Assembly: GCA_028284195.1 (NCBI GenBank)
Contig: JANQSE010000002.1
Location: 372,001-436,000, forward strand
Source of the DNA: Balneola sp.
GTDB lineage: Bacteria > Bacteroidota > Rhodothermia > Balneolales > Balneolaceae
Direction of reading: 5' to 3'
DNA length: 64,000 nucleotides
The notes under the pieces were generated by a model. It was not told where the DNA came from and did no database searches. It saw nothing but the letters and a program-made list of their open reading frames with translations. The position numbers and the translations under genes are program-made. This document shows positions 1,785-42,532 of the stretch, in pieces. The first letter of the stretch is position 1. Each line of letters starts with the position of its first letter.

Positions 1785-1826
1785 CTATCTACGTAATTGT
1801 TAGTATTGTTGAGCAGAATATGCTGA

Positions 1827-2657: not shown

Positions 2658-3146
2658 TTACTGAACGGCAATCAGTGTTATATCAAAAATTAAAATTGAG
2701 TTTGCTGGAATAGTATCAGTTGATCGGCTGCCAAAAGCATAACCAGATGGGATATATAAAGTTATTGATCCTCCGGGTCCTATCTTAGGTATCCCAATCT
2801 GCCATCCAACTATGAGGTTTGAAAGCGCAAATGGTACCGCTATTTCGCTGGAATCAAAAACTTCGCCTGTTGCTAATAATCTGCCTTCATAAGTAACGAG
2901 AATATCGCTGCATAAATTAGCTCTTACATCACTTCCTCTCCTATCAATTACATACCTTAGTCCTGTTTCATCTGTTTCAGCAGCTATGCTTATTTCCGCA
3001 AGATGAGCATCTATTGTATCTAGATCTTGTTGAAATCTTTCTTGATTTACATTTAGGTTTGCTTCCAGTTCACATTTTGGATCTCGAAGACAACCTGCTG
3101 TGGATATAAATAATACAAGCAGTATAAAAAGTGAGATTAATTTCAT
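2658..3146 (-). CDS. FKBP-type peptidyl-prolyl isomerase lipoprotein
   Basis: A 162-residue exported protein. The N-terminus is a hydrophobic signal ending in a lipobox (STAGC, Cys at about residue 19), so it should be lipid-anchored in the envelope. The C-terminal ~90 residues carry the FKBP fold signature: VTYEGRLLATGEVFDSS, then FALSNLIVGWQIGIPKIGPG, SITLYIPSGYAFGSRS and a final IPANSILIFDITLIAV. These align with the standard VxYxGxLxDGxxFDSS, viGW.egl..m..Gek..l.iPs..aYG and IP.n..L.F.veL blocks. The linker (residues 20-70) is rich in helix-forming and acidic residues. Proline isomerase/chaperone activity on periplasmic proteins is inferred from the family. It is downstream of pntB with a 22-bp gap, so it may be read from the pnt operon. 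Confidence 0.85.
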   Translation of the reverse strand: MKLISLFILLVLFISTAGCLRDPKCELEANLNVNQERFQQDLDTIDAHLAEISIAAETDETGLRYVIDRRGSDVRANLCSDILVTYEGRLLATGEVFDSSEIAVPFALSNLIVGWQIGIPKIGPGGSITLYIPSGYAFGSRSTDTIPANSILIFDITLIAVQ

Positions 3147-3168
3147 TTAATTAAGTTTTAATGTTAGT

Positions 3169-4584: not shown

Positions 4585-4871
4585 TTGTCATCCTCCTTTT
4601 TCTTGAACATTTCGAGCATGCGGTCGGTGACCATAAATCCACCCACCACATTGATGGTGGCAAAAATGATCGCAGAAATTCCAAGAATTTGTGTAATCAA
4701 ACCTCCGTCAGTTCCAGATATGATCAATGCACCAACAATGGTAATACCGGAGATTGCATTAGCTCCACTCATTAAAGGAGTGTGCAGGGTAGGTGGTACT
4801 TTTGAGATTAGTTCAAACCCGATAAAACAGGCGAGAACAAATATGAAAAGAGAAAAAATTAGTGCCGACAT
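4581..4871 (-). CDS. pntA2: NAD(P) transhydrogenase subunit alpha part 2 (membrane part)
   Basis: A 96-residue membrane protein with three or four hydrophobic helices; it corresponds to the C-terminal membrane part of E. coli PntA, split into a separate gene here as in many bacteria. Signature stretch: GFELISKVPPTLHTPLMSG followed by ANAISGITIVGAL. A longer reading from an ATG at 4907 would add MKLFLPCLNRID, but that overlaps pntA1. The ATG at 4871 starts the usual hydrophobic N-terminus (MSALIFSLFIFVLACFIGF) one base after the pntA1 stop (TGA-t-ATG), so I chose it. Its stop overlaps the pntB GTG start. It forms part of the proton channel. Confidence 0.93.
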   Translation of the reverse strand: MSALIFSLFIFVLACFIGFELISKVPPTLHTPLMSGANAISGITIVGALIISGTDGGLITQILGISAIIFATINVVGGFMVTDRMLEMFKKKEDDK

Positions 4872-4872
4872 A

Positions 4873-5997
4873 TCAATTCGATTTAAGCATGGGAGAAATA
4901 ATTTCACCTTGATGGGTGATGGTAGTATTTAAAATAATTTCATCTTCAAAGTCGAAATCGAGTTCACCTTCTTTAATGAGTAAGTTCAATAATGCAAGCA
5001 TATTTTTTGCATACAAAGTGCTCGCATCACTTGCTAGCTGACTGGGAAGATTTATTGGTCCAACAATTTTCACTCCGTTAACATTTTTTGTTGCTCCCAT
5101 TTCAGTAAGCTCACAGTTTCCGCCATTTTCAGCAGCAATATCTACAATTACAGATCCGGGTTTCATATCAGTGACCATTTCTTTTGTAATAAGAACAGGG
5201 GCTGGTTTTCCAGGAATCAAAGCTGTAGTAATAATAACATCTGACTTCTTTGTATGCTGATGGATTAACTCTCGTTGTTTGAGTTTATCGTCTTCCGTTA
5301 ACTCTTTAGCATAACCGCCTTTGGTTTCAGTTTCCTCTTCAGACAACTCCACTTCGATAAATTTAGCTCCTAAACTTTCTACTTGCTCTTTTACTGCCGG
5401 CCGCACATCAAATGCTTCAACAACAGCTCCTAGTTTTCGGCAGGTTGCAATTGCTTGTAATCCTGCAACTCCTGCACCTAGAATTAAAGCTTTAGAAGGA
5501 GGAATCGTGCCGGCAGCAGTCATCATCATTGGGAAATATTTATCCAGTTTATTTGCTGCGATCAGCGACGCTTTATACCCCGCAATCGAGCTCATGGAAG
5601 AAAGGGCATCCATATTTTGAGCTCTTGAAATTCGAGGGATTGCATCCATTCCCAGAGCAGAAATTTGTAGGTCCTGAAGTAATGAAACCAAGTTCGGATT
5701 TTGCAACGCCCAAATGAAACATACTAAAACAGCATTCTTTTTAAGGGATCTCAAATCTTCATGAGATGGAGTTTGGACAGTGAGCAGAATATCTGCAGTT
5801 GAAAGAAGTTCATTTTTAGAATCCAGAATTTTAGCACCTGCTTCTTCATAATGGGCATCAGGGAAATTGGAAGAAGCTCCAGCATTTTGCTCAATCCAAA
5901 CTTCAAAACCCTTTTTTATAAGTTGAGAAGCAGCATCCGGGCTTAAAGCAACTCGTCGCTCATGCTCTGCAGTTTCTTTGATAATGGCTATGACCAC
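4873..5997 (-). CDS. pntA: NAD(P) transhydrogenase subunit alpha part 1 (NAD-binding)
   Basis: A 374-residue soluble subunit, domain I of transhydrogenase, which binds NAD(H). It starts MVIAIIKETAEHERRVALSP, the standard alanine-dehydrogenase/PntA N-terminus, and has the Rossmann stretch LILGAGVAGLQAIATCRKLG followed by VVEAFDVRPAVKEQVESLGA. The hydride-exchange region ALIPGKPAPVLITKEMV and SVIVDIAAENGGNCELTE also match PntA. Alanine dehydrogenase is the main alternative, but the size, the neighbouring pntA2 and pntB and the RPAVKEQV loop favour PntA. First gene of the operon; 172 bp divergent from trxB. Both genes feed the NADPH/redox pool, which is a sensible pairing. Confidence 0.95.
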   Translation of the reverse strand: MVIAIIKETAEHERRVALSPDAASQLIKKGFEVWIEQNAGASSNFPDAHYEEAGAKILDSKNELLSTADILLTVQTPSHEDLRSLKKNAVLVCFIWALQNPNLVSLLQDLQISALGMDAIPRISRAQNMDALSSMSSIAGYKASLIAANKLDKYFPMMMTAAGTIPPSKALILGAGVAGLQAIATCRKLGAVVEAFDVRPAVKEQVESLGAKFIEVELSEEETETKGGYAKELTEDDKLKQRELIHQHTKKSDVIITTALIPGKPAPVLITKEMVTDMKPGSVIVDIAAENGGNCELTEMGATKNVNGVKIVGPINLPSQLASDASTLYAKNMLALLNLLIKEGELDFDFEDEIILNTTITHQGEIISPMLKSN

Positions 5998-27335: not shown

Positions 27336-29270
27336 TCAATTATCCTTTTCTTTTTTTTCTTCAGCCAATGTTTTGATCAGCGTTCTGCTAATATTTATAA
27401 AATTACCTTCGGTAATAATACCAACTAATTGACTATTCTTCACTACAGGAAGGCATCCAATTTTTTGATCCTGCATAATCTCCATCGCCTCAAGAATGGA
27501 TGCTTCGGGATGTATCGTAATGGGATTATCGATCATGATTTTTTCAATTGTAAGGCTTTCATCATTCATTTTTTCGGTAATTATTTTTGAGTATTCCCGC
27601 ATTACCATCCGCATAGAAACAAGGCCTACCAAATGCTTTTGGTCATCCTCAATTGGTATGTAGCGAATACGTCTCCAGTCCAAAAGGTTTGCTGCAAATT
27701 CTATCAGGTCATCCTTGCGGGCTGTAAATAAATCGGTTGTCATAAATTCTTCGACCAACAGAGTAGAGGGCCTCCAAAAATTCACGTCCTCAATTCTTGC
27801 CAAGCCCCATTTATGTACAGGCTCTCCCTTTTTTTGATTTTTAGCCATTGCCATGGTTATAGCAGATAATGTTTGCTCTCTGTTATGTTCTTTTATCAAT
27901 TTGCCATAAGACTTTACTACCCAATAAGCACCGGTTTGGGCACTTTCTACACGATCTTCGATTACACTCAAATAAGTATCGATATCAGATTTTTGTATGC
28001 TGGCTTTTTCTAAACCTGCACGGGCAATGGGTAATAATTCTTCTGTGATCAAATCTCGTGCTGTAATCTTTGAATCACCTGTCCAGATAAATTTAGTGTC
28101 TGTTCCCATTTTGGATGCAGCAAAAAAGTTCATTCTTGCATCATCAAAATCTAATTCTTGGGTAATGTCTGGATAAGCATCTTCGAAACCATTCATCAAA
28201 CCCAGCCAAAAAGCTGTATTCGCAATTTCATCTACTACCGTTGGGCCCGATGGCAAAACCCTGTTCTCGATTCTCAGATGTGGTTTACCGCCGCCAATAC
28301 CATAGCATGCCCTGTTCCAGCGATATACCGTTCCATTATGAACATTGAGGGCCATTAATTTAGGAGGCTCTCCATTTTGGAGCATTTCTTCTACATTTTC
28401 TACAACATTTGAGCTTAAAAGAACCCGATACCTGGAAATGTCTTCCTTATAAATATCCAGGATGCTTCCCCGCAGCCAATCGTTACCAAATGTTACCCGT
28501 GGCAGGCTGTCCCTGAGGTGATCCGTAACTCCCCGTGTATCCACAGATTGATGAAAAAGAGCAATTCGTGTTTCTGCCCATAACCTTTTTCCAAGAAGAA
28601 TAGGAGAATTTACTGCACTTGCTAAAACAGGTGCACTTATGGCTTGTGCAACATTATACTTTGATACAAACTCATCGGGTTTAATCTGCAGATGCACCTG
28701 ATATCCGGTATTGCAGCCTTCTAAAAGGGGAGTATCGAATTTCATTAACAGTTCATCCATTCCCTGAATGCGGATATCATACTCTTTGCCCCGCATATTA
28801 TCGATCGCATCGCAGAGTGCTTTATATCTTGGTAGAGGAGTGAGGTTTTCAATGGCAACATCTGATTTCCGGATGGAAGGAAGAATACCGGTTAAAAGAA
28901 TATCACCACCAAGCTTTTGAACGGTTTTTCGAACATACTCAACTTCTTTTTGGAGGTTACTTTCCAGTTGTGAGAGGCAGTTCCCGGTAAACTCCAGGGG
29001 ATCAAGATTTATTTCTACGTTAAACTTGGCGATTTCGGTGGTATAATTGCCTTCGCCCAAAGCTTCCAACACTTCCATGGCATTTGTCATGGCCTTACCA
29101 TGATCGTCAATCAAACATAATTCCTGCTCTGCGCCAATTCTGATTGTATCTGTTTCGAACCAATCATCTTCCAGCATTTTTTCCATGGCACGTACATCTT
29201 TGAGTACATACTTCATGAACTGCTGAATTTCTTCGTTGCTTTTTGCCAGTTTAACTCGTTCTTCGCCCAT
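27336..29270 (-). CDS. GCS2-type glutamate-cysteine ligase-like protein with C-terminal CBS pair
   Basis: A 644-residue fusion. Residues ~20-480 match the GCS2 carboxylate-amine ligase family: IRIGAEQELCLIDDHG, EIAKFNVEINLDPLEFTGNC, GCNTGYQVHLQI and GGKPHLRIENRVLPSGPTVVDE, which contain the acidic metal/ATP-binding residues. Residues ~515-640 form two CBS domains (EEFMTTDLFTARKDDLIEFA; EKIMIDNPITIHPEASILEA), which usually bind adenine nucleotides and regulate the attached enzyme. Typical GCS2 ligases lack CBS domains, so ligation probably responds to energy charge; this is inference. True glutathione synthesis is not shown, since no gshB is nearby. First gene of a compact operon with the M14-like deacylase, scpB, rluB and a hydrolase. 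Confidence 0.85.
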   Translation of the reverse strand: MGEERVKLAKSNEEIQQFMKYVLKDVRAMEKMLEDDWFETDTIRIGAEQELCLIDDHGKAMTNAMEVLEALGEGNYTTEIAKFNVEINLDPLEFTGNCLSQLESNLQKEVEYVRKTVQKLGGDILLTGILPSIRKSDVAIENLTPLPRYKALCDAIDNMRGKEYDIRIQGMDELLMKFDTPLLEGCNTGYQVHLQIKPDEFVSKYNVAQAISAPVLASAVNSPILLGKRLWAETRIALFHQSVDTRGVTDHLRDSLPRVTFGNDWLRGSILDIYKEDISRYRVLLSSNVVENVEEMLQNGEPPKLMALNVHNGTVYRWNRACYGIGGGKPHLRIENRVLPSGPTVVDEIANTAFWLGLMNGFEDAYPDITQELDFDDARMNFFAASKMGTDTKFIWTGDSKITARDLITEELLPIARAGLEKASIQKSDIDTYLSVIEDRVESAQTGAYWVVKSYGKLIKEHNREQTLSAITMAMAKNQKKGEPVHKWGLARIEDVNFWRPSTLLVEEFMTTDLFTARKDDLIEFAANLLDWRRIRYIPIEDDQKHLVGLVSMRMVMREYSKIITEKMNDESLTIEKIMIDNPITIHPEASILEAMEIMQDQKIGCLPVVKNSQLVGIITEGNFINISRTLIKTLAEEKKEKDN

Positions 29271-29635
29271 TTCGCAGTTTGTTTTAATCCAACTCCTAAA
29301 TACCGATTTTCTTAAGCGTATTGCAAGTTTAAAAAGTAAATAACCACTAAGGCCACAGAGTTAGTAATAAATGCCGCAACCTAATAAATATTACTTTAGG
29401 TTTTTAGTTCAGTGCTGTTGTCTAAATAAATTTTGTGGTTTGCTATTACCGAATTGCTTCTACATTAATATTTATCCTAATGGAGGAAGCATTTTTACCA
29501 GCTTCTTGGTTTAATAAAATTCTCAACTTCAGTTCAAAATATTATATCTTTATTCATCAAAAACTACTTGATTCAACCTTGATATTTAGTATTCTATAAG
29601 CAAGTATTTTATTCGAAAATTAGATTTATTCAGTA
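29271..29635. other. 365-bp intergenic stretch holding a priA 3'-end remnant
   Basis: Between the divergent GCS2-CBS gene and the first island gene. The segment 29271-29445 is AT-rich with no recognised motif apart from presumed promoters. The segment 29446-29541 is a decayed copy of the end of priA, listed separately. From 29542 to 29635 the sequence is AT-rich and contains TATCTTTA at about 29545, resembling the Bacteroidetes -7 box, roughly 85 bp before the GTG start at 29636. Confidence 0.6.
29446..29541 (-). pseudogene. Remnant of the priA 3' end (island boundary)
   Basis: Minus-strand frame of 31 codons plus stop, ending IRININ then VEAIR-stop, compared with the intact PriA ending VIRVNINVEAIR-stop at 40100. 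The last 36 bases agree at 33 positions; 25 bases (29450-29474 and 40104-40128) are identical. Differences in the tail are third-position changes and V/I. Further in, the frame reads FELKLRILLNQEAGKNASS against FIEKLLDRIMKVYEAESKIGTS, a weaker but aligned match. A stop codon lies immediately upstream of the match, so this is a fragment only. It has the same orientation as priA and marks the left edge of the 29.5-40.1 kb block. Confidence 0.8.
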
Positions 29636-31381
29636 GTGCGTGTATTTGTAATATTAATTGGGCTTGCTCTCGCCTCATGCAAAAAAACTGTTCGAACTGA
29701 ATTTGTTTTTATTTCAGAGTCATTTCAGAACCGATTTGTGGATGATGGTACTACACAAATTCATGATGAAAATGACGAAGGATTTTTTAAAGATCATTTC
29801 AATATTTCTAAAGCCAATCGTGAATTTTTTTCAGCTCAACAGATCGATAAAGAAATACTCTTTAAGAAAACGGGAATTGCCTGGAATCAGATTGCACATT
29901 TTGATTCGGTATTAAATTTCAAAAACCTGTTTTCGATAAATACCAATAGGGTCGCTTATGTTATCGAATATCGATTCGTAGATTCTTATAAGGATCTGTT
30001 TTTATCCTTAGGTTCAGATGATGGAATCAAAGTATGGGTAAACGGAGAGGAAATTTACTCAAGGAATGTGTGGCGGGGTATTCAAATAGATGATGATTTT
30101 ATAGACATCAAGTTAAATTCTGGATGGAACACGATTGTCTACAAAGTAAGCCAAGGCGATGGTGGCTGGGGATTATATAGAACGTTCAAAGAGAAAAAGT
30201 ATCTAGAGTCGTCTATATCTCATAAATCCTTTGATATTTATAACGACATTCTTGAAGCTGCAATTTTAGAAGAAAATGAAATACTGCAAATAAAAATTGA
30301 TCCTCGTTCAAAGCTGGATACTTTCAATACTGTTGAATTAAAATTAAACGAGGTTTTACAAAACTTTGACAAAAGTGAGGTCCTAAAAAAAGAGGTGCTT
30401 GGAAGCGAGCTTCCATTTGAAATTAAATTGCCTGCAAGTTTTACAGGATATGGAATCTTCTCCCTAAAAGTAACGCGCAAAAACAGAACTGTATTTAAAG
30501 AAGATATTCCTGTCTTTAACAGAAGCTATATTGACCGGCAATATTCAAAGTACTCTGAAACCCAAAATGGTTCGCAAAGTGATGAGTTTTACTGGGCTAA
30601 AAAGAATGCGTTTCTTGTCTTGTACGATAAGGGAGAAAAAGCTTCCACTCGTATGCTGGCTGAATCTTTGCATGACCTACTGCAATATGAACATAAGAAA
30701 GAGTCCATAAGTCATCCTGGATTTGATATCCTGGGATACAGGTCCAGAACAGATAACTCAGTACAAACCTACACTCTGTTTTCTCCCAATGATAGCCCAG
30801 TAAGAACTGGGGTTTTGATTATGCATGGGGAATATGATAAAGACAGCGATTATTGGTACAGTTATGAAGGTGGAAGCCATTCTGTAACAACTGGGCGCAT
30901 CGCATCCAGCATAAAATGGAACATACATCTTGTTATGACCCATGGGCGTGGAATCCAGAATTACTTAGGAGAAGCCAAAGAAGAGTTACCATTAATATCT
31001 AAACAATTATCTTCTTTATCCGGAATTAACGCCTCGCATATTTTAGTATGGTCTAAAGGAACTACTTCGCTGCTTGAGCTTTTAAAGAATGTTGACTTAA
31101 AACTGGAGTCTGTCGGGATTATAAGCCCGTTTGTGCCGGACAAAAAAATAGAAATGCAGCAATTGATCAGCTATATAAAAATCAGATATCCTGAGTTGAA
31201 GTGGTTCATTCGCCATGGACTTAACGATTCTGATTCGCCTATAAGTCGTACACGGAAGTTTGTAGAATTACTTAAAAACAACAACTATGAAATAAATTAT
31301 GAAGAGATTCCCTATTCCACACACTGGAATTATATTTATGATCAGGAACACAAATACTATGAATATGTTTCGCAGAATTAA
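29636..31381 (+). CDS. Lipoprotein with PA14-like module and esterase-like alpha/beta hydrolase domain
   Basis: About 581 residues starting at GTG. The N-terminus (MRVFVILIGLALASCKKT) is a lipoprotein signal with Cys at 15. Residues ~100-180 hold LSLGSDDGIKVWVNGEEIYS with SGWNTIVYKVSQGDGGWGLY, the DDGxxVWxNG signature of PA14/galactose-binding-like modules. The C-terminal half is hydrolase-like: GVLIMHGEYDKDSDYWYSY, elbow ILVWSKGTTSLLEL (candidate Ser in WSKGT), acid in HGLNDSDSPISRTRKFVELL and His in STHWNYIYD. The elbow deviates from GxSxG. I infer an envelope-anchored carbohydrate or peptide esterase. It is the first gene of the AT-rich block; the next gene begins inside its last codons. 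Confidence 0.65.
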   Translation: MRVFVILIGLALASCKKTVRTEFVFISESFQNRFVDDGTTQIHDENDEGFFKDHFNISKANREFFSAQQIDKEILFKKTGIAWNQIAHFDSVLNFKNLFSINTNRVAYVIEYRFVDSYKDLFLSLGSDDGIKVWVNGEEIYSRNVWRGIQIDDDFIDIKLNSGWNTIVYKVSQGDGGWGLYRTFKEKKYLESSISHKSFDIYNDILEAAILEENEILQIKIDPRSKLDTFNTVELKLNEVLQNFDKSEVLKKEVLGSELPFEIKLPASFTGYGIFSLKVTRKNRTVFKEDIPVFNRSYIDRQYSKYSETQNGSQSDEFYWAKKNAFLVLYDKGEKASTRMLAESLHDLLQYEHKKESISHPGFDILGYRSRTDNSVQTYTLFSPNDSPVRTGVLIMHGEYDKDSDYWYSYEGGSHSVTTGRIASSIKWNIHLVMTHGRGIQNYLGEAKEELPLISKQLSSLSGINASHILVWSKGTTSLLELLKNVDLKLESVGIISPFVPDKKIEMQQLISYIKIRYPELKWFIRHGLNDSDSPISRTRKFVELLKNNNYEINYEEIPYSTHWNYIYDQEHKYYEYVSQN

Positions 31382-32414
31382 CTTTTACCTAGTTGTGGTT
31401 ACTCTGCTGGGAATTACAGTTTCTTGTAACAAAAAAACTCAAGACTTTGATATAACAGTAGATCTTGCTCATGAAATGGGAGCCGGTATGTTTGCGCCAG
31501 ATAAGGGAGACAGTATTTTTATTTCCGGAAACTTTAATGACTGGAGCACATCTTCTGATCCACTAAAAGTATCTGCTAATGAGTGGGTATATGGGATCGA
31601 TGTTCGAGACATGGTTGACCTGGGAGACGATGCCATTCAGGTTTCCGACACCCTTGAGTATAAATTCTTTCTTAAATCTGAAGATCAAAGCAAATTATTG
31701 AATACGGGGTGGGAATCAATTGCAAACCGAAAAACTGCAATCGGAGACTTAATTATCGAAAAACCTACCTTTATTTTTAATGATCTTGATCCGGTTCAAG
31801 AAACACGTAATGTTACTTTTACAGTGGGAATGTCGAACCAACAGGTATTAGGCTTTTTTGAACCTGACTCCGGAGATGTTGTAGTTGTTACGGGATCATT
31901 TATTGACTGGAACCCAGTTGGTATTCCCTTGGAATTAACTTCTAAAGATAATTTAGTCTACTCAGGTATAATCCCTATCTCTGATAATTCAATTTCATAT
32001 AAATATGTTATACACTCAAAAAGGAGGTCTACATTGACCTCTGCTAGATGGGAAACAATACCTAATAGAGAGATGCTTTTAAATAACGAAGGAACTAGTA
32101 ATTATTCCGATTTTAATAATCAAAATAGATTATTGCGTATACAACTGAATACTGAAAGAGCTTCTAAGAATAAAATATTTGAAGAATCAAAAGGCGATCG
32201 ATTACAAGTAAAGCTATTACTAGATAACAAAGAACATTTAACCAGCTATATGATAAATGTAGGTAAGAATGTATACGAAATTGCTGTAGAGATCCCGCCT
32301 AATGTTCTTAATATAGAGTATAAGTTTGTGTTAAACATTAATGAATCGATTGATGAGTATAAACCGTTAAATGTTCCTGTTGGTGGTAAGTTTTTGAAAT
32401 TAAAAGATATTTAA
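31359..32414 (+). CDS. Lipoprotein with repeated CBM48/CBM20-like modules
   Basis: About 352 residues. An earlier ATG at 31299 exists, but the ATG at 31359 (or 31365) gives a proper lipoprotein signal (FYLVVVTLLGITVSC). Two clear beta-sandwich repeats follow: AGMFAPDKGDSIFISGNFND-W (about residues 35-55) and VLGFFEPDSGDVVVVTGSFIDW (about 162-183), each with the G-x-F-x-D-W core and later YKFFL or YKYVIHS strand plus a W-E-x-I-x-N-R motif. A third, degenerate repeat may occupy ~265-345. Such units resemble starch/glycogen-binding modules attached to Bacteroidota exported proteins. No catalytic domain is seen. It overlaps the upstream gene by about 23 bp, so the two are coupled. Confidence 0.65.
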   Translation: MNMFRRINFYLVVVTLLGITVSCNKKTQDFDITVDLAHEMGAGMFAPDKGDSIFISGNFNDWSTSSDPLKVSANEWVYGIDVRDMVDLGDDAIQVSDTLEYKFFLKSEDQSKLLNTGWESIANRKTAIGDLIIEKPTFIFNDLDPVQETRNVTFTVGMSNQQVLGFFEPDSGDVVVVTGSFIDWNPVGIPLELTSKDNLVYSGIIPISDNSISYKYVIHSKRRSTLTSARWETIPNREMLLNNEGTSNYSDFNNQNRLLRIQLNTERASKNKIFEESKGDRLQVKLLLDNKEHLTSYMINVGKNVYEIAVEIPPNVLNIEYKFVLNINESIDEYKPLNVPVGGKFLKLKDI

Positions 32415-32445
32415 GTATCATAATGCAATCATATCTTAAGTCAAG

Positions 32446-32832
32446 ATGAAGATTTTTAAAATAATTTTGCTAGTACTTTTTCTTTATTCATGCAATCTGG
32501 TACCTGATCCCGAAACAAGAGAAGTCGAAGAATATCAAACTATTATTTTGGGATTCTCATTTTCTCCCGATACAGTAGCAGTAGGGGATACCGTACTCAT
32601 TAAATGCATTATTGAAGATTCATTGGATACCTCTTTTAGGTTTGATTGGGGTTTAGAAAATAAAATACCAATTAATGGAAGGATAGATAGTTCGGTTATC
32701 AAATGGGAAGCTGTTGAAATGTCTCAGCAAACTAATATAGTAACACAATTACGGCGTTCAGTAACAGTAGATAATTCAAGTGAAACAAAAGAACCTGTAA
32801 GCGAATCTTTTTCAATAAAAATTCAACAGTAA
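32446..32832 (+). CDS. Small lipoprotein with Ig/PKD-like fold
   Basis: A 128-residue exported protein: signal MKIFKIILLVLFLYSC with lipobox Cys at 16, then NLVPDPETREVEEYQTIILG. The rest is a single predicted beta-sandwich: FSFSPDTVAVGDTVLIKCII, SFRFDWGLENK, and a final SVTVDNSSETKEPVSESFSI, resembling immunoglobulin-like or PKD repeats that occur in surface proteins. No active-site motif is visible and I do not recognise a named family. It follows the CBM-like gene by 31 bp and is probably in the same operon; a weak terminator hairpin follows it. Confidence 0.55.
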   Translation: MKIFKIILLVLFLYSCNLVPDPETREVEEYQTIILGFSFSPDTVAVGDTVLIKCIIEDSLDTSFRFDWGLENKIPINGRIDSSVIKWEAVEMSQQTNIVTQLRRSVTVDNSSETKEPVSESFSIKIQQ

Positions 32833-32842
32833 AAAAATTGGC

Positions 32843-32875
32843 GACAGCTTAAACTGTCTTTACCCCTATTTTTTA
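32843..32875 (+). terminator. Possible intrinsic terminator after the small lipoprotein gene
   Basis: GACAG (32843-32847) and CTGTC (32854-32858) with a six-base loop form a 5-bp stem, followed by TTTACCCCTATTTTTTATC. It lies 10 bp after the stop of the lipoprotein gene. The short stem makes it weak, but the following T-rich tract supports termination. Confidence 0.45.
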
Positions 32876-33032
32876 TCTTCAAAATGTTGTTCAATTATAG
32901 GTTACTAAAATTGACTTGGGTTGCAATTGCTGCAAATTCTTTAAAATAGGATGAAAACCAGTATGGAATAAGAATGTTTATTAAGGAAAAATTTTATATA
33001 AAAGAACCGAAATATTTCAGTTACCCAAGCAT

Positions 33033-33683
33033 ATGAAAACACTCTCTCTAATACTTTTTTTGATTTTATTTAATCCGGTTTTGAAAGCCCAACTTGACTA
33101 CAGCATAGACATCGGCTTAAATGTGAATAATTTAAACTTGAATAGTTCATTAAGTGAAGATATAGAACCGAGGTTAGGTTATCATGTTTCCACTTCTTTC
33201 AGCCATCCACTAAGTACAATGTCAAAATTTAATGTTCAGCTTGGCTTCGAAAAAATAGGGTTTAATGACCTTGTTTCTTCTAAGGTCTTTGATGATTCAG
33301 CAAACCCACTACCCGATATAGAGTCTGAAGTAAAATTATACAATATTGTTATTGTACCAAGCTTTCATCATTCATTTCTATTAGCAAACAAAAAGATTGG
33401 ACTATCCATAGGCTTTGCTGGCAATATTAATATTGCTCGGGATATTGAAGATTTCCTCATCTTGATTGAAGGGAAATCACCTATTGGTGAAAATATTAAA
33501 AGTTTTTGGATCGACTTTATGTTTCGATCAGAATATGAGTTACACAAGAACCTGAATGCACATTTATTTCTTACAAAAAGCATAATGCCGGTTATAGAAA
33601 CCGTAGGCTTTATATCTGGAGAAGATGAGAAGGGTTATTTTTTGAAATTCGGAATTGGGTTATCATACCGGCTAAAGATATAA
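33033..33683 (+). CDS. Outer-membrane beta-barrel protein
   Basis: A 216-residue exported protein with a signal peptide (MKTLSLILFLILFNPVLKAQ, cut after KAQ). The mature part alternates polar and hydrophobic residues in short strands with turns, such as YSIDIGLNVNNLNL, GYHVSTSFSHPLS, KFNVQLGFEKIGF, and it ends with FLKFGIGLSYRLKI, a typical terminal aromatic strand for Bacteroidota 8- to 10-strand barrels (PorT/OmpW-like). No enzymatic motif. It could transport or anchor substrates for the neighbouring secreted lyase-like protein; this is only a guess from position. A 10-bp inverted repeat lies just downstream. Confidence 0.65.
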   Translation: MKTLSLILFLILFNPVLKAQLDYSIDIGLNVNNLNLNSSLSEDIEPRLGYHVSTSFSHPLSTMSKFNVQLGFEKIGFNDLVSSKVFDDSANPLPDIESEVKLYNIVIVPSFHHSFLLANKKIGLSIGFAGNINIARDIEDFLILIEGKSPIGENIKSFWIDFMFRSEYELHKNLNAHLFLTKSIMPVIETVGFISGEDEKGYFLKFGIGLSYRLKI

Positions 33684-33705
33684 GGGTTTTCTTAAACTGA
33701 TAAAT

Positions 33706-33729
33706 ATTACTCTTAGATGTAAGAGTAAT
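33706..33729 (+). terminator. Perfect hairpin between barrel gene and lyase gene
   Basis: ATTACTCTTA (33706-33715) and TAAGAGTAAT (33720-33729) form a perfect 10-bp inverted repeat around GATG. The following GATTTTGAATTTATTTAAA is T-rich. It lies 22 bp after the barrel gene stop and 70 bp before the chosen start of the lyase-like gene, so it may terminate the first or regulate the second. An AT-rich stem makes a strong terminator doubtful. Confidence 0.45.
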
Positions 33730-33799
33730 GATTTTGAATTTATTTAAACTTACATTATTATTTGATAATGGTTTATGTAAAAAATTATCGTGTATTATT

Positions 33800-36700
33800 A
33801 TGAGTTTTTTAAAACGTATTTTAGGTCTCTTGGTTTTAGTGTTCGTTGCACAAGATGTAACTTCTCAAAGTTGGAATTTGCCAGACAACAGAGTTAATGA
33901 TAGGCACAATCAGATAGACTATATGGTGGTTCCTCGACCTGCCCTTTCCTTAAGAGGATTTGATAATTCAGTTTCTGATCAATATAGCCACACTCACAGT
34001 ACCAAGGTATATGGAGTTAGACAGTTGCTGGAAAAATTATACGGAAACATAAATATTTATGGATCAGGTAGCGGATCTTCTTCTTATACAATAGATACTT
34101 TTGACTATATCAATAAATTAGCTGATGAAAACTTCCTTACTGACATTAATGATAACAGAGAAGAAAATGCAGCAATTTTAGAAGCTATTGCATTTATGGC
34201 TTTGGTTACTTACATCATAGAAGAAAACAATGGGTCAGGTGAATATTTAAATGGTTTATCTGATCCAATTTTAGGTCTTGAATCACACAGTTATTACAGA
34301 AGCAAACTTATTAGCGCCTTAACTTCGAGTAGAAATTACTTAAGAGATGTTACTGTAGATGTTGCGTTTAAAAAACAGAAATCCATCTTAAGATTAACCA
34401 GAGCCTGGGATTTGTATTTAGCATTAGAAAATGCTTATGAAGATCTTGGTGGCACAGTTTCGTTGCTTTTAACGTCTACTCAGAAAAGCTCAATGAATAC
34501 AAAAATTTATAATGGTATAAAGACTATGTGGCAGCAGTGCCATGCTGATGTTCCATATGTGGGATGGGCAACAGGCATTCAACTTCATGAGGCTCAAGCA
34601 GGAAATTGGCCTCTTATTTGTGACGTCGCATTAGCCTCGGCGGCTTTTGCAATAAATGGGGATCAGTTAACTTTCTTTCAAAGTTTTAGTGACGATGATG
34701 GGACTACTATATATGGGCCTCAGGATATAATTAACAGAGGTATTAAGTCTGCAGATTTTAAATACTGGGATACTTCAAATAAGAGGTATAATTATTGGTG
34801 GTTTCAAACGGATGCAGGAAAAGGTTATTGGGCAGAGGGTACTTATTATTTTGATATTTTGTTGAGACCAGTTTTTGACTTTTGGCATGTAATCAGATCC
34901 AATAACATTCAGCATTCAACATCAACAAGTGATATTTATGCCAATGGAAATAATGATCCATTTAATTATTCTAAATTTTTAGAGCCTGTAGAATGGTTAG
35001 CCGATTTGGTATCAAATAATGGTGAAAATATACCTCTAGATGATGCAAATAAAAGACCTATAGAATCTGCGAGATTATTCAGTTGGGGCCACTCTTACGG
35101 CGATACTAGTATAAGTAAAAAATTTGCATATATAAGAGATTTAGATGCAGTTGCTGCAAGGTATAACAATGTTACTAGATATAACTCAAAAACCGTTGAA
35201 ATTTCATATGACCATATTGAAAAGAATCAGGGAGCCCAATATACATCTGTTTACGGCAATACTTCTTCTGCACAGCTGGAAAAAACTGAATCATACCTGC
35301 GACATTATGAATCATCAGGTGATTCTCATTTCTTACTAATGAATGGAGAGTATGGCGGAGCAATTTCCAGAGCTGAAGGACACGAACAACCTGACCAGCT
35401 TCAGTTGCTTTATTATACTAAACACGGTAATACGGAAATCTCTCGCTTAATGGATTCAGGATATGACTCAGGAGGACCAATAAGTAATAGCTCTTGGAAT
35501 GACTTTGAATATCATAATGTATTTCACCCAACAGGTGGTGATGCTTTAGATACCCCTGTTTTAGCTTTAGATAAAAAAAGAAAAACATCTGAGCATGAAG
35601 AAGTATCATATAACTACATTACTGAAGATGGAAATCTAACCATTTTACGAGGCAGTGTTCCTGTTGGTACATTCAGTACTTATGGAAATGGGAATAAGCT
35701 TTCTGCCGAGTATCGAAGAAATGTAATTTTCGTTAAGGATGGATCATATGGAGAAGGTGAGTACATAATTGATATGAACTCGCAAATATTACCAAATAAT
35801 TACACCAATCCTGTAGCAGATAATGTGGTTAACAGGATGAGGTACTACACTGAAAAAAATGGCGGGTTTTATTCTACAGAAGCCTATGCCTCTTGGAATA
35901 CATACTATTCGCCGTATCTATCAGGCATTCCTAATTTATATTCTAATATTCGGCCATTAAGCCCTTACGTCACAAATGCTGATTTTGATATTGACTATCA
36001 GAATGTTCAGGAAACAGGTTCAAGCACTACTCAACAAGTTAGAACAAACTTTGAGTTTAAAGCATACAATACTCGTGAAAAAGGTGTAATTGCATTTTTA
36101 AAAGTAGATGGTTCTGTGCCTGCAAGTGATGCTATTGCCAGTCTATCTGGAACGGATTATAAGACAAGAGCTTACTCATTCAAAATTTCACCAACTATAA
36201 TTGATGTAGTAGTGAAGAGGATTAAAAAAGATGGAGCGGGAGCAAGTAACTCTCATTTCAATAGTGATTATATTTTTGATGTCCCCCGAGCAGGTGGGTT
36301 TTTATTGTCGTTTGAAAAAAATCAGGAATTCGGATTTGTAAGACTTTTTAAGAATAATGGATTTTGGGAAATAGACGAGGATTATAATTATGGATTTACA
36401 AAAGAATATGAGCTACAGGCAAACACTACTTATACTATAAGTGGAGATGTTGGTATTAATAAGGGCTCTACATTTATTCTTGGTACTAATACCCGATTAG
36501 TTTTTAATGGTGAAGTAAATGCTCAAGGAGAATCAGGAAATCCTATCAAATTCAAAAGCACCAATCCTTCAAATAGTTCATACAACTATGATCGAGTATG
36601 GTTTAAAGATGATGCAATTCTTAAATGGGTTATCTTTGAAGGTGGTGATCATAACGCTTATTTCACGAATGTAAATTTTGCCGATATAGATAATGTCACA

Positions 36701-38284
36701 TTCAGGAATGGAGAGACCGGTTTGTATTCAGACAACTCCGTAGTAAATATTAAATATGGACTGATAACAGACAACAGCGCTCGTGGCATTGTTTTGAATA
36801 ACTCGTCAGTAGCTTTAAATGATTCTAAGGTAACCAATAACGGAGCTCGGGGGATAGATACATATTCTTTTACTGGAGTGGATATTTGGAGATCTGTAAT
36901 CCAAGGAAATGGAAGCTATGGCATTGCATCTTCTAGCCCATCTAACATTTATCTTCAGAATAGCATTGTAAAAGATAATAATGGTCATGAGATATACTTA
37001 CTTTCCGACGCAGGCTTGATATTGAATTGGGATTATAATTCTATATACGATCCAAACGAAAGTTATTCTTATAGCCAATATAAGTATATATATAAATCCA
37101 TCCTGACCTCTCAGGGAGAGAATAACGTTAGCCCGACTACCTATGCACATGGTAATTATTGGGGACAGTCTCAGATGTCATCTGCTATGTTTTATGGATC
37201 TGTCCAAGCATCTAATAATCTTACTTATGATCCTAATTCGAGTTTGAACCCTTCAAACTTTCCTCTTGAAAGTAATCATGATGATGGTGAGCAATTAATA
37301 CTAAGAGAGACGATTACTTCCGCAATTGCTTCTAAAGTCAAAGCCAAAAATACAAGTGAAAAGAATCGTGAAAAGAAATTAGCATACAAAACATATTTTA
37401 ATCAGTATCGAAATAATTTTGCTGGTGAAAAAAATCCTTTAAACAAGGTATCACATCTTCGGTCAATGAGATCAATAATAAAATTTGAGAATGAAGGACT
37501 GGAAAGTGAAAAAGAAGAATACAGAAGACTTGTTGGACTGATAAAAAGACAGGCAGATAATAAATTGATAGCTAATTCTTTAGCTATAGAGAGTAATCAA
37601 ACAAATTATTCACAAGCCGCTGCTTCAGATTCACTAAATGAATATCTGTTATTAAAGAGTTATTTAGAATACTTTGAGATTGAGGATGCGTTTCTCGACA
37701 ATAAGTATCAACAAGTAATATCTAAGGTAAATCAATCAATTAAAAGAGAAACAAATCAAGATTTAGTAAGATCCTTATTATTCTTAAAACTCTACTCCCT
37801 ACAAAGGCTATCAAGACATGAAGAAGCATTAGCTATACTCGAATTGATAGAAAATCAGGCTCCTGATGAAGAGATTGTTAAAGGTGATTTTGAACAGGCA
37901 GATTTTAGCTTCCTCAAATTGGATTTACAAGATCAAGCAGGACAAAAGGACGATGTTCAAAATCAAAACACAAAACAGGTAGATCCAAATAACATAGATG
38001 ATACAAAAGAAGAAAACCCTTCTGATTTTACTTTAAATCCAAGTTATCCAAACCCATTTAATCCCTCGACTAATATTTCATTCACATTACCAACTAGATC
38101 ATTTGTTCAAGTTGAAATATTTGATATTAATGGTAAATTGATATCTGTTCTAGCTAACAAACAAATGAATCAAGGAAAACACATTTTGCAGTTTAATGCT
38201 AACAATTTAGCAAGTGGAGTGTATATCATTAGAGCAAGGCTGGGAACAAAACAATTTTTTGATAAAGTCACATTAATTAAATAA
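33800..38284 (+). CDS. T9SS-secreted heparinase II/III-like polysaccharide lyase with beta-helix
   Basis: About 1494 residues. The frame extends upstream to 33728, but the ATG at 33800 gives a clean signal peptide (MSFLKRILGLLVLVFVAQDV, cut after SQ). Domain order: an alpha/alpha-toroid-like region (residues ~30-480, with WFQTDAGKGYWAEGTYYFDI); a beta-sandwich core containing GAISRAEGHEQPDQLQLLYY (about residue 520) and LMDSGYDSGGP, matching the heparinase II/III pattern of a His-x-x-x-Asp then Tyr/Gly-rich strand; a parallel beta-helix (about 880-1120, repeats such as NDSKVTNNGARGIDTYSF); a helical linker; and a T9SS type-A tail (NPSYPNPFNPSTNISFTLP, GVYIIRARLGTKQFFDKVTL). The pattern of the catalytic residues is suggestive, not proven. 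It should be surface-exposed or secreted. Confidence 0.72.
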   Translation: MSFLKRILGLLVLVFVAQDVTSQSWNLPDNRVNDRHNQIDYMVVPRPALSLRGFDNSVSDQYSHTHSTKVYGVRQLLEKLYGNINIYGSGSGSSSYTIDTFDYINKLADENFLTDINDNREENAAILEAIAFMALVTYIIEENNGSGEYLNGLSDPILGLESHSYYRSKLISALTSSRNYLRDVTVDVAFKKQKSILRLTRAWDLYLALENAYEDLGGTVSLLLTSTQKSSMNTKIYNGIKTMWQQCHADVPYVGWATGIQLHEAQAGNWPLICDVALASAAFAINGDQLTFFQSFSDDDGTTIYGPQDIINRGIKSADFKYWDTSNKRYNYWWFQTDAGKGYWAEGTYYFDILLRPVFDFWHVIRSNNIQHSTSTSDIYANGNNDPFNYSKFLEPVEWLADLVSNNGENIPLDDANKRPIESARLFSWGHSYGDTSISKKFAYIRDLDAVAARYNNVTRYNSKTVEISYDHIEKNQGAQYTSVYGNTSSAQLEKTESYLRHYESSGDSHFLLMNGEYGGAISRAEGHEQPDQLQLLYYTKHGNTEISRLMDSGYDSGGPISNSSWNDFEYHNVFHPTGGDALDTPVLALDKKRKTSEHEEVSYNYITEDGNLTILRGSVPVGTFSTYGNGNKLSAEYRRNVIFVKDGSYGEGEYIIDMNSQILPNNYTNPVADNVVNRMRYYTEKNGGFYSTEAYASWNTYYSPYLSGIPNLYSNIRPLSPYVTNADFDIDYQNVQETGSSTTQQVRTNFEFKAYNTREKGVIAFLKVDGSVPASDAIASLSGTDYKTRAYSFKISPTIIDVVVKRIKKDGAGASNSHFNSDYIFDVPRAGGFLLSFEKNQEFGFVRLFKNNGFWEIDEDYNYGFTKEYELQANTTYTISGDVGINKGSTFILGTNTRLVFNGEVNAQGESGNPIKFKSTNPSNSSYNYDRVWFKDDAILKWVIFEGGDHNAYFTNVNFADIDNVTFRNGETGLYSDNSVVNIKYGLITDNSARGIVLNNSSVALNDSKVTNNGARGIDTYSFTGVDIWRSVIQGNGSYGIASSSPSNIYLQNSIVKDNNGHEIYLLSDAGLILNWDYNSIYDPNESYSYSQYKYIYKSILTSQGENNVSPTTYAHGNYWGQSQMSSAMFYGSVQASNNLTYDPNSSLNPSNFPLESNHDDGEQLILRETITSAIASKVKAKNTSEKNREKKLAYKTYFNQYRNNFAGEKNPLNKVSHLRSMRSIIKFENEGLESEKEEYRRLVGLIKRQADNKLIANSLAIESNQTNYSQAAASDSLNEYLLLKSYLEYFEIEDAFLDNKYQQVISKVNQSIKRETNQDLVRSLLFLKLYSLQRLSRHEEALAILELIENQAPDEEIVKGDFEQADFSFLKLDLQDQAGQKDDVQNQNTKQVDPNNIDDTKEENPSDFTLNPSYPNPFNPSTNISFTLPTRSFVQVEIFDINGKLISVLANKQMNQGKHILQFNANNLASGVYIIRARLGTKQFFDKVTLIK

Positions 38285-38288
38285 GTAT

Positions 38289-40040
38289 TTGATAACAGAA
38301 TCAAAGAATGTTATTTACAACGAAAGCAAGTTTATAGTTCTTAGCTTTTTAGTATTTCTTTTTTTGATTAGTGCTATATATACTTCTTCCTTGTATGATA
38401 GCATTCATTCGCCCAAAAATCTGACCTTAATAGTATACGGCTTAATCATAGCTCCTTGGGTTTTCTTTTTTCAAAAGAAAACTATGGAGCTAAGGGTTGG
38501 CATAGTCGGTTTTTTGTTACTTATTAGGATATTATACATAGTACTAATAGAGACTTCCTCATTACACGTTATTGAGTTTTCTCTTCTCTTAATATTATGC
38601 TTTTTTGTTGTATATCAAATTGGAAACCAGACAGAAACTATTAAAGAGAGAAAAATAGTTGTCATTTTATGTGCAACACTATTTTTTTCTGGTATAGTAT
38701 TGAGTTTTGTTGGGTACTACCAGTTTTTCCAGTCTTACCATATAATTAATCAGTCGATAAAAACAGCTGTTGTGGGCACATTTGGTTCTTCAAATGCATT
38801 CGGAAATTGGTTAGGCATATCTATTGTTGGAGGTTTTTTTCTCTTTAGAAAATTTGAAAAGAATAAAATAATTCTTGCCGGAATGGTCTGCATTTTTATC
38901 TGTTTGATATTAACAGAATCTCGTGGTGCCTTAGTTTCACTTTTTTTGGCTGGTTTAGTTTGGGTCGGACTTGAGAAAAAAAGAACAATCTCTTTTTATA
39001 TTTATGGTTCTCTGTTTTTAATACTGACCTTTCTTTCTCTCGTATTCGTAGATATAGATTCATCCACCGGTCGTTTATTTATTTGGGAGATCAGTATTCA
39101 GATGTTGAAGGAAAACTATATCACCGGTGTTGGTATTGGGAATTTTGGCAATGAATTCCTGGAGTATCAAGGAGAGTTCTTAACAATGAATAAAGATATA
39201 CCTTCTTCCAAAGCAGCATTCATCAGAAGTCCTCACAATGAATACTTACAAGCGTTTGTGGAAGGAGGAGTCATCGGGGGCGGCTTATTTTTAGCTATTA
39301 CAATATTCCACATACTTAATTTAGTAAGGGGTGTGAAGAGCAAAAACAAAGAACACTTTCTGGTATCAATGGCCTTAAGCACTATGATAATAGTGCACTC
39401 TTTTATTGACAGCATTCTGCATTTTACACCACAAATGATACTGTTTTACTTTTTGATTGGACTATCTGAGAACACTCGCACATTTTCAATAAAACCTAAA
39501 AAATATATATCTATTCCTTTTTTTATCATTTTGACTATATACTCTTCTTCTTTTCTTTATCATCAAGTTCTGGGAAGATATAATTGGAAAAAAGGTATTG
39601 ATCACTCCGGGAAAGCACTTTTTTCCATATCTGTTCCATACTTTGAAAAAAGCCTTAAATACATCCAATATGGCGAACTCTATTTTCATTACGGGGCAGC
39701 GTTAGTACATAATGGAAGTCCTGAAAAGGGAATCTACTTCTTAGAAAAAGCATCGGATACTTTTTTAGATAAAAATTTATTCCTGTCAATATCCGAAGCT
39801 TTTATCAAAATCGAAGAATACGAAAAAGCTATTGATGAAGCTGATAAAGTACTTTTTTACTACCCAGATTTATTAGCTCCTCACTTATTAAAGGGAAGAG
39901 CATATTACCACCTAGAAGAATTCGACAAGTCCAAAGAAGAGCTTTTAAAATGTATAAGGCAAGAAACAGCAATTAAATCCAAAGACACTGAACAAATCGC
40001 AAGAGAAGCATTAGAAATTTGGCAGAAATATGGCTATTGA
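38289..40040 (+). CDS. O-antigen ligase/polymerase family protein with C-terminal TPR
   Basis: About 583 residues starting at TTG, two bases after the lyase gene stop. Ten to twelve hydrophobic helices fill the first ~400 residues; a large periplasmic loop contains GVGIGNFGNEFLEYQG, SPHNEYLQAFVEGGVIGGGL, the Wzy_C/WaaL signature (His before N-E-x-L-x-x-x-x-E-x-G). WaaL ligases join O-antigen to lipid A; Wzy polymerases and O-oligosaccharyltransferases share the fold. The C-terminal ~150 residues show tetratricopeptide-like helices (LYFHYGAALVHNGSPEKGIY, LFLSISEAFIKIEEYEKAID). The TPR extension and linkage to a T9SS cargo suggest a glycan transferase acting on exported protein or polysaccharide; the specific reaction is inference. 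Confidence 0.75.
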   Translation: MITESKNVIYNESKFIVLSFLVFLFLISAIYTSSLYDSIHSPKNLTLIVYGLIIAPWVFFFQKKTMELRVGIVGFLLLIRILYIVLIETSSLHVIEFSLLLILCFFVVYQIGNQTETIKERKIVVILCATLFFSGIVLSFVGYYQFFQSYHIINQSIKTAVVGTFGSSNAFGNWLGISIVGGFFLFRKFEKNKIILAGMVCIFICLILTESRGALVSLFLAGLVWVGLEKKRTISFYIYGSLFLILTFLSLVFVDIDSSTGRLFIWEISIQMLKENYITGVGIGNFGNEFLEYQGEFLTMNKDIPSSKAAFIRSPHNEYLQAFVEGGVIGGGLFLAITIFHILNLVRGVKSKNKEHFLVSMALSTMIIVHSFIDSILHFTPQMILFYFLIGLSENTRTFSIKPKKYISIPFFIILTIYSSSFLYHQVLGRYNWKKGIDHSGKALFSISVPYFEKSLKYIQYGELYFHYGAALVHNGSPEKGIYFLEKASDTFLDKNLFLSISEAFIKIEEYEKAIDEADKVLFYYPDLLAPHLLKGRAYYHLEEFDKSKEELLKCIRQETAIKSKDTEQIAREALEIWQKYGY

Positions 40041-40099
40041 GATTAAAACTAGCATGCGCAATTAAATCGAAAACTTTTATCTATATCCATCTAAACTTC

Positions 40100-42532
40100 T
40101 TAACGAATTGCTTCTACATTAATATTTACCCTGATAACTGAGGTGCCGATTTTGGATTCAGCTTCATATACCTTCATTATTCTATCCAGTAATTTCTCTA
40201 TAAAATTTTCTCCTTTACTGGTAGGCAACTTCAGTGTTACTTCCCATAAAAAGTTTTTATTCATCCACGCAATTGCTGCGGGAGAAGGGCCTAGAACGTC
40301 AAAATCCGGTACAACCCGTTCCACAACGTTTTTCAGGTTAAGGGCACATGCCCGAACCTGATGCTCTTTTTTTCCTTTTAATACAAACTTTACCAGCCTT
40401 GAGTAAGGCGGATAGTGAAGTGTGTTTCTGAATTGCAATTCCGACTTAGCAAAGTCATTATAATTATGAGTGCTTGCAAATTGTAATGCTTCATTTTCTG
40501 GCTGCCTTGTTTGGATAAAAACCCTCCCCGGTTTATCACCACGTCCTGATCTTCCGGCAACCTGGCTTAATAATTGAAACATTCTTTCCGAAGACTGGAA
40601 GGATGGAAATGCCAACTCGGTATCAGCATCTATTACTCCTGCCACAGTTACGTTGGGGAAATCCAGCCCTTTTGCCACCAACTGGGTTCCAATCATGATA
40701 TCGGCTTTTCCTTCGGCAAATGTATTCAAAATTTGTTCGTGCGCTCCTTTTTGGGAAGTAGAATCACGGTCGAAACGAAGGATGCCGGCTTCAGGGAAAA
40801 GTATTTCGAGTTGTTCTTCAATTTTTTGAGTTCCGGCACCTTGTTCAATCAGATGTTCGGAACCACATTCTTCGCAAATGGCATCTGCTTTTCTGGAATA
40901 ACCCGAGTAGTGACAAATCAATTGATTTTTTCTTTTGTGATAAGTCAGGCTTATGGAACACTCCGGGCTTTGAGGAATATGGCCGCAAGTTTCGCATTGC
41001 AGATAATTAGCAAATCCACGGCGGTTGTATAAGAGAATGACTTGTTCTTTTTTTGTCAGCGCTTCTTCGATAGCGTTGTATAGCGGGATGGAGAGTTCTC
41101 CTTTCATTGCTCCGGTATATTTTTTCAGGTCGATGATCTCTACTCCCGGAAGTTCAGCTGATTGGTGCCTGTTATTAAGTTGCAGCAATGTTGCTTTTCT
41201 TTTTTTCGCCATCTCCAAAACCTGCATACTTGGGGTTGCTGAACCCATTACTACTACCGCATTGCATTTACTTGCTCTTACAATAGCTGTTTCTCTGGCA
41301 TGGTACCTGGGTGCCGGATCAGTTTGTTTGTAGGAAGCATCGTGTTCTTCATCCACAATAATGATTCCAAGATTTTGAATCGGTGCAAAAACAGCCGAAC
41401 GTGGTCCAATCGCAATTTTCTTTTCACCAGATTTAAGTTGTTCCCATGAGTTTAAGCGCTCTCTGTCAGTCATTCTGCTATGAAGTACGGCTATTTGCTC
41501 GCCAAAGATTTTATAAAACCTTGAAACTGTTTGCGGTGTCAACGCGATTTCAGGCACTAATACAATTCCACCTTTACCGTTTTTAAGTACTTCTTTAAGT
41601 GCATGAATATATACTTCTGTTTTACCGCTTCCGGTAATTCCTTTCAGCAAATAGCTTGAGAACTTATTCTCATTAATAGAAGCTTTAACACATTTAAATG
41701 CGGTTTGCTGTTCCTTATTTAGTTTTTTAATGGATCCGGGTTCGTAACTCAGGTTTATTCTTTCAGGTTCAGATTCTATATCAACAGGTGCAATCCAGCC
41801 TTCTAGTTTTAGCTTATTAACCGAATAAGAAGAGATACCCAGTTGCTTTAATTCCGAATTTCTGAGTGGTAATTTCCTGGCAGCAAAAACAGACAATGCC
41901 TCCATCCATTTTAAAGTCCTGGATTGTTTTTTTAGAGATTCTAACGCCTGTTCTTTGGTTTTGCCTGGTGCCCAATCCCAGGCTCGTTCTGTTTTGGCAG
42001 GTACTTTAATTTGAGGGGTTTCCCATACCTCCAGCACGCCCGACTTCATCAGTTTTTTGAATACGTTATTCAGAGAAGTTCGGCTCCATCTTTTTTTTGC
42101 GGAATCAAAAGTAATGGCTTCATCGGTTTTTATCTCATTTACAATGTCGTGTTCTTCTTTTGTGAAAGAACCGCCCAGTCGTGCTTTATTTACCTGAAGT
42201 TTTTTTTGAGATATAAAATTCAATCCTGCTGGGAGTGCTGCCTGAATCACCTCTCCCCAGCTACAAAAATAAAACTGATGTACCCATTCCGTTAAATCAA
42301 GAAGTTCTTGTGAGAGAACCGGTGCAGTATCCAATATCTCCCGAACATCTTTGGTTTTAAACCCGGGCTTTTGATTATGCAAACGAACGGCAACGCCTAT
42401 CGCATAATGAGATCGAAAAGGAACCCAAACGCGCATTCCCCGTTCCAACTCTAATTGATGAGATTCGTTAACACGGTAAGTAAATGATCGACGAACTGCG
42501 GTTGGAAAAATTATGTCAGCAAATTGCGGCAA
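40100..42532 (-). CDS. priA: Primosomal protein N' (replication restart helicase)
   Basis: An 810-residue SF2 helicase that restarts stalled replication forks. Visible: N-terminal DNA-binding domain (ADIIFPTAVRRSFTYRVNES, ERGMRVWVPFRSHYAIGVAV), Walker A LLKGITGSGKTEVYIHALKE, DEEHD motif IIVDEEHDASYKQTDPAPRYH, motif III VVMGSATPS and motif VI VAGRSGRGDKPGRVFIQTRQ. The Zn-binding region has CETCGHIPQSPECSISLTYH and CHYSGYSRKADAICEECG: comparing with E. coli, cysteines corresponding to C445 and C466, both ligands of the same zinc, are Ser here, while the other site is intact. The last ~96 bp recur as a remnant at 29446, marking an island at its 3' end. Confidence 0.95.
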   Translation of the reverse strand: MPQFADIIFPTAVRRSFTYRVNESHQLELERGMRVWVPFRSHYAIGVAVRLHNQKPGFKTKDVREILDTAPVLSQELLDLTEWVHQFYFCSWGEVIQAALPAGLNFISQKKLQVNKARLGGSFTKEEHDIVNEIKTDEAITFDSAKKRWSRTSLNNVFKKLMKSGVLEVWETPQIKVPAKTERAWDWAPGKTKEQALESLKKQSRTLKWMEALSVFAARKLPLRNSELKQLGISSYSVNKLKLEGWIAPVDIESEPERINLSYEPGSIKKLNKEQQTAFKCVKASINENKFSSYLLKGITGSGKTEVYIHALKEVLKNGKGGIVLVPEIALTPQTVSRFYKIFGEQIAVLHSRMTDRERLNSWEQLKSGEKKIAIGPRSAVFAPIQNLGIIIVDEEHDASYKQTDPAPRYHARETAIVRASKCNAVVVMGSATPSMQVLEMAKKRKATLLQLNNRHQSAELPGVEIIDLKKYTGAMKGELSIPLYNAIEEALTKKEQVILLYNRRGFANYLQCETCGHIPQSPECSISLTYHKRKNQLICHYSGYSRKADAICEECGSEHLIEQGAGTQKIEEQLEILFPEAGILRFDRDSTSQKGAHEQILNTFAEGKADIMIGTQLVAKGLDFPNVTVAGVIDADTELAFPSFQSSERMFQLLSQVAGRSGRGDKPGRVFIQTRQPENEALQFASTHNYNDFAKSELQFRNTLHYPPYSRLVKFVLKGKKEHQVRACALNLKNVVERVVPDFDVLGPSPAAIAWMNKNFLWEVTLKLPTSKGENFIEKLLDRIMKVYEAESKIGTSVIRVNINVEAIR

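Follow-up and report, generated by a model that had tools for sequence, protein, structure and literature searches.

Foreign DNA at the 3' end of priA in a Balneola genome: the probable footprint of a decayed or passive genomic island

Tyrosine integrases place genomic islands and prophages at the 3' ends of protein-coding genes, such as the fis, icd and trmE sites. In the genome of a Balneola sp. (a 2.68-Mb draft in 19 contigs, 98.5% complete) a long block of AT-rich DNA lies between the 3' end of priA and the neighboring GCS2-CBS gene, and what looks like a second priA end is found at the far edge of this block. How did the block come to lie there? We have addressed this question in a window of 64,000 nucleotides, the whole stretch of DNA that was analyzed, and in comparisons with congeners and with other genomes of the family and class. 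The block is likely a decayed or passive genomic island that integrated at the 3' end of priA. The features of the locus are collected in Table 1.

Table 1. Features of the priA-GCS2 locus in the window (positions count from the first letter of the window; a point marks a feature that is given no strand).
Feature	Position	Strand	Remarks
GCS2-CBS gene, 644 aa, other flank	27336..29270	-	Pfam GCS2 and CBS; adjoins priA in relatives
Ancestral priA-GCS2 intergenic region, conserved with congeners beside the GCS2 start	29271..29445	-	local score 36-47, reached by 0/300 shuffles
Repeat copy, GCS2 side (attR-like), displaced priA end	29446..29481	-	33/36; downstream ancestral, upstream not
Inserted block, about 10.6 kb, AT-rich, six plus-strand genes	29482..40099	.	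absent here in 7/7 congeners
Lipoprotein, 581 aa: N-terminal SDDGIKVWVNG motif, alpha/beta-hydrolase-like C-terminal part	29636..31381	+	27% homolog in G087
Lipoprotein with CBM20/CBM48-type domains	31299..32414	+	Pfam CBM_20 3e-11, two stretches; 31% homolog in G087
Small lipoprotein, 128 aa	32446..32832	+	ORF with lipobox-like signal; no family matched
Outer-membrane beta-barrel protein, 216 aa	33033..33683	+	OMP_b-brl_2 1.4e-5, just under the curated cut-off
Secreted protein, 1518 aa: head, right-handed beta-helix, T9SS C-terminal sorting domain	33728..38284	+	Pfam Beta_helix, Por_Secre_tail; TIGR04183
Membrane protein, 583 aa: Wzy_C (WaaL/PglL superfamily) and C-terminal TPR	38289..40040	+	Pfam Wzy_C 8.7e-16, TPR
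Repeat copy, priA side (attL-like), in frame, stop codon included	40100..40135	-	upstream ancestral, downstream not
priA, target gene, intact, 810 aa	40100..42532	-	Pfam PriA_3primeBD, DEAD, PriA_C

The last 36 bp of priA, used as a query, occur at two places in the window, in priA itself and, on the same strand and with three mismatches, beside GCS2. The two copies form a direct repeat that is identical at 33 of 36 positions, 25 of them consecutive. A match of this kind arose in none of 100 dinucleotide shuffles, and its E-value at whole-genome scope is 7.4e-8. Both copies read in the same frame, the intact priA ending in IRVNINVEAIR-stop and the far copy in IRININVEAIR-stop, and the far copy lies 175 bp from the GCS2 start, which is where priA of the relatives ends. 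A preliminary description of this DNA had claimed that two copies of the priA 3' end bound a block of about 10.6 kb, and this is borne out by the numbers above. It had also read a 96-bp segment (29446-29541) as a PriA C-terminus, of which the last 36 bp are indeed priA-like; the alignment of both edges gives a repeat of this length and not of 96 bp. Of the 36 bp directly upstream 12 agree with priA, of the 60 bp directly upstream 19, and shuffles score equally well in a local alignment of this upstream part against priA (p about 0.4). Since the likeness to priA is confined to the last 36 bp, the stop codon further upstream in the fragment is no evidence for the decay of a longer priA copy. The similarity of the two copies breaks off abruptly at 36 bp, and the DNA on the block side is unrelated at both.

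The two copies are about equally distant from the congeners and have the bases GTA GAA in common, which are absent in the congeners. Their three differences are silent or conservative (p about 0.06 under random change); we considered this as an argument for a foreign priA origin and dropped it as too weak. Inverted-repeat arms in the 36-bp core did not rise above shuffles and no typical tyrosine-recombinase core is evident in it. Viral contigs were searched for the core and for homologs of the block, and neither was found.

The arrangement in the relatives supplies the empty site. In all seven congeners, whose PriA is 63-71% identical to that of the window, GCS2-CBS adjoins priA with order and orientation unchanged, the two matches lying 66-192 bp apart, and 27 further genomes of the wider family carry both genes on one contig with a gap of 62-250 bp. 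Therefore an empty site exists; genomes with GCS2-CBS directly beside priA had been named in the preliminary description as what should be looked for. We have then compared 175 bp on either side of each repeat copy with each of the seven congeners and with shuffles. Upstream, the priA side aligns with all seven (scores 34-107, equalled by no shuffle), whereas the fragment side gives no significant alignment (scores 16-22, p 0.04-0.83). Downstream, it is the GCS2 side that aligns with all seven (scores 36-47, again equalled by no shuffle), while the priA side does not align significantly (scores 13-20, p 0.18-0.94). In the alignment the fragment is followed by the conserved GCS2 upstream region, just as in the relatives. 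A circle that enters a gene end by one crossover leaves the old upstream flank with one repeat copy and the old downstream flank with the other. Here the upstream flank is ancestral next to priA alone and the downstream flank next to GCS2 alone, which fits an insertion with attL/attR geometry, and this four-way comparison agrees with the earlier proposal that the insertion took place at the 3' end of the gene, leaving priA intact on one side and displacing its old end. The intergenic DNA of several congeners (corresponding to window positions 29270-29445) contains CCACAGAGTTCACAAAG / TTCTTTGTGGTTT-like inverted repeats, which differ from one species to the next and may represent a small dispersed repeat.

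Other loci of the family were inspected for the same pattern. A second priA end is missing from ten loci with a wider gap between priA and GCS2 (0.5-9 kb; G008, G010, G013, G015, G016, G018, G024, G028, G044 and G075). A separation of 41 kb in G021 (C18, 30001-77000) was examined as a second island at this site and rejected: it is made up mostly of core and efflux genes, and because there is no repeat and the interval holds core genes (lexA, transaldolase, ribosomal protein L21 and others), this locus represents a rearrangement instead of an island. A search for a second family genome with two copies of the priA end, which is effective within the genus only, found none, and in no other searched genome was the block seen beside priA.

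By its composition the block is foreign. Its GC content is 33.7%, compared with 40.5% and 39.9% in the flanks, and its tetranucleotide distance is 0.265, compared with 0.091-0.149 for 33 other stretches of 10.6 kb from the window. The GC content at third codon positions is 0.21-0.33 in the genes of the block and 0.33-0.40 in the neighboring genes. The comparison of GC content and codon use inside and outside the block that had been proposed earlier thus marks it as an outlier. The cargo is also rare. Of 245 class genomes, only two match a profile of the putative ligase (E <= 1e-60), and these two, the window genome and G087, are also the only ones in which the 581-aa lipoprotein occurs at full length. 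No defence system was matched.

What the block does not have is an integrase, an excisionase or any other mobility gene. Three proteins of the window genome match PF00589, but their genes lie on other contigs or, where the contig is shared with the block, at a distance of about 250 kb, in keeping with the earlier remark that no integrase is visible in the block; two of the three look like housekeeping Xer proteins, judging from their length and, for one, from its neighbors. Because an integrase is missing, we speak of a decayed or passive island and not of a complete one: the block would be either a remnant that has lost its integrase or DNA that was mobilized in trans. As a separate observation, a 330-aa tyrosine recombinase at G000:C17:7000-18000 (983-5640) is accompanied by genes for a DNA cytosine methylase, a Vsr-like endonuclease, a nucleotidyltransferase and a small membrane protein, and, as read from the sequences, this locus looks like a small defence islet.

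A homologous module is present in G087, an uncultured Balneolaceae MAG that is distant within the family. It lies on a contig of 22.4 kb (C224) and encodes homologs of the 581-aa lipoprotein (27% identity), the CBM lipoprotein (31%), the T9SS beta-helix protein (26%) and the ligase (33%). The likeness to the window block is limited to these identities of 26-33%, and the N-terminal part of the beta-helix protein differs, with a HELGH metallopeptidase-like motif read from the sequence and no Pfam match. In contrast to the window block, the G087 contig carries a 422-aa tyrosine integrase as well as replication and recombination genes (a YqaJ-type recombinase, a DnaB/AAA_25 protein and a DUF932 protein), and it ends, beyond the integrase, in a tRNA-Met gene. 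Since the homologs share their contig with an integrase and a tRNA gene, the cargo module travels on integrase-bearing islands in this family, and the G087 contig is a good candidate for the complete version of this type of element. Its integrase has relatives in 34 of 89 family genomes, the window genome not among them, and because the G087 element lies at a tRNA gene this integrase is not the enzyme that acted at priA.

We therefore favor a model in which a circular element entered priA by a single crossover within the 36 bp at its 3' end. This circle would have brought its own copy of these 36 bp, so that the end of priA was rebuilt and the gene stayed intact, and the old end would have been pushed to the far edge beside GCS2. 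A tyrosine recombinase probably catalyzed the crossover; as none is encoded in the block, this enzyme would have disappeared later or would have worked in trans. Against this model stand the absence of any mobility gene from the block, the lack of a typical inverted-repeat core and of viral matches to the core, and the fact that no second genome has the element at priA, so that use of the site is seen once.

The main rival is a crossover without any site-specific enzyme, that is homologous or homology-assisted illegitimate recombination with a relative in which 25-36 bp of the priA end served as short homology. Such a crossover of a circle would leave the same footprint, the absence of an integrase in or near the block speaks for it, and the bases GTA GAA that both copies share to the exclusion of the congeners imply a close priA as the source of the incoming end. 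Nevertheless, we consider it unlikely. The repeat is short, its limits are sharp and the block DNA next to either copy is unrelated, no searched genome has the donor arrangement, and a homologous exchange with a donor that already had the block at priA does not by itself create a duplication. The preliminary description was right about the insertion at the 3' end and the displaced tail; its suggestion of homologous recombination with a diverged relative is not favored, because the similarity stops sharply at 36 bp, no donor arrangement was found and the module sits on an element with a tyrosine integrase elsewhere. A single crossover of a circle, site-specific or by short homology, fits better.

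A foreign block with a direct repeat at each edge would also result from a transposon-like event with a long target-site duplication and later loss of the transposase. However, the repeat lies exactly at the gene end with the stop codon included, 36 bp is far above the usual length of a transposon target duplication, and no transposase was seen by Pfam among the proteins of the block, which makes this origin highly improbable. Equally hard to believe is that the arrangement is ancestral or an artefact of assembly. Admittedly, priA and GCS2 are apart in some other family genomes as well and the window genome is a draft, but all seven congeners have the empty site, the separated loci that were inspected lack the repeat and the largest of them is a rearrangement. 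An artefact would need two misjoins at an identity of 25 bp within a contig of 697 kb.

The six genes of the block encode predicted secreted and surface proteins, so that the cargo may be read as a surface/secretion module. The C-terminal part of the 581-aa lipoprotein contains the motifs WSKG, HG..D and HW, and the protein weakly matches Peptidase_S9; from these motifs an alpha/beta-hydrolase fold is suggested. The CBM lipoprotein probably starts at an internal Met. These two lipoproteins resemble an esterase and a glycan binder, respectively, which hints at what the cargo might do, while no Pfam family matched the 128-aa lipoprotein. The 1518-aa protein ends in a sorting domain (PF18962 Por_Secre_tail 5.2e-12, TIGR04183 3.8e-9) and is by this C-terminal domain a predicted T9SS cargo; no family matched its N-terminal head. 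Structure models of the 581-aa protein and of this head were of too low a quality to be informative (mean pLDDT 36 and 31). A second gene with the architecture of the 1518-aa protein, 43% in the head, is found at G000:C11:232000-238166 (2385-5866), where, close to a contig end, two overlapping ORFs of 372 and 813 aa make up this paralog, which is frameshifted, decayed or misassembled.

The 583-aa protein belongs to the WaaL/PglL superfamily by its Wzy_C match, its invariant HNE motif and its match to 7tpg, a solved polysaccharide polymerase/ligase; PglL-specific models and motifs did not match, only those of Wzy_C and TPR. Its homologs, 31-33% identical, are encoded beside T9SS beta-helix proteins. 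In the window, in a Bacteroidetes MAG and in a Calditrichaceae MAG the Wzy_C-TPR gene directly follows the beta-helix gene, and in G087 the gene of the CBM lipoprotein lies between the two. The heads of the beta-helix proteins differ between genomes, that of the Calditrichaceae MAG being of a repeat type. Because PglL genes adjoin those of their substrates, the ligase may, by analogy, modify or anchor the beta-helix protein. One may go further and imagine an integrase-less cassette moved in trans, in which a T9SS beta-helix protein with exchangeable head is served by a dedicated WaaL/PglL-like TPR ligase that adds a glycan or lipid, and which spreads between phyla on islands with different targets, priA included; we think this broader picture rather unlikely.

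The locus is a precisely mapped footprint of an integrase-less island in a poorly studied lineage, and it makes a probable attachment gene of priA, which functions in replication restart. We found no report of priA in this role in the literature searched. The cargo pairs a T9SS-exported protein with a ligase-like enzyme in four distant genomes, and if the pair works together, this would offer a testable route to anchor or glycosylate exported proteins.

Ligases of the PglL/WaaL type are known to be encoded beside their protein substrate (PMC3643930). The window likewise has a Wzy_C membrane protein with HNE motif directly after a secreted protein. There are differences, since the partner here is a T9SS beta-helix protein and not a pilin, the ligase has a C-terminal TPR part and PglL-specific Pfam models do not match. 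O-antigen ligase family proteins distantly like that of the block (25-28% over part of the length) are also encoded near secreted proteins on plasmids of Bacteroidaceae. In these Bacteroides and Phocaeicola operons the partners are NVEALA peptides, six-bladed beta-propellers, a signal peptidase and thioredoxin-like proteins, and unlike in the window no T9SS beta-helix protein is annotated nearby.

For the insertion itself, islands at protein-coding genes in general have been described (PMC12884075), and the same anatomy of attachment sites has been reported for genomic islands, with blocks that restore the gene and with a site at the extreme end of fis among the cases (PMC10111431). The window block shares with islands that tyrosine integrases place at 3' ends the repeat that completes the gene, the restored and the displaced end, the flank geometry, the empty attB (in seven of seven congeners) and a foreign cargo. 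It differs in that no integrase lies inside, the target is priA and the element is seen in one genome only, with no related element at the same site as further support. Events of this type are known; less familiar are priA as a target and the module carried as cargo.
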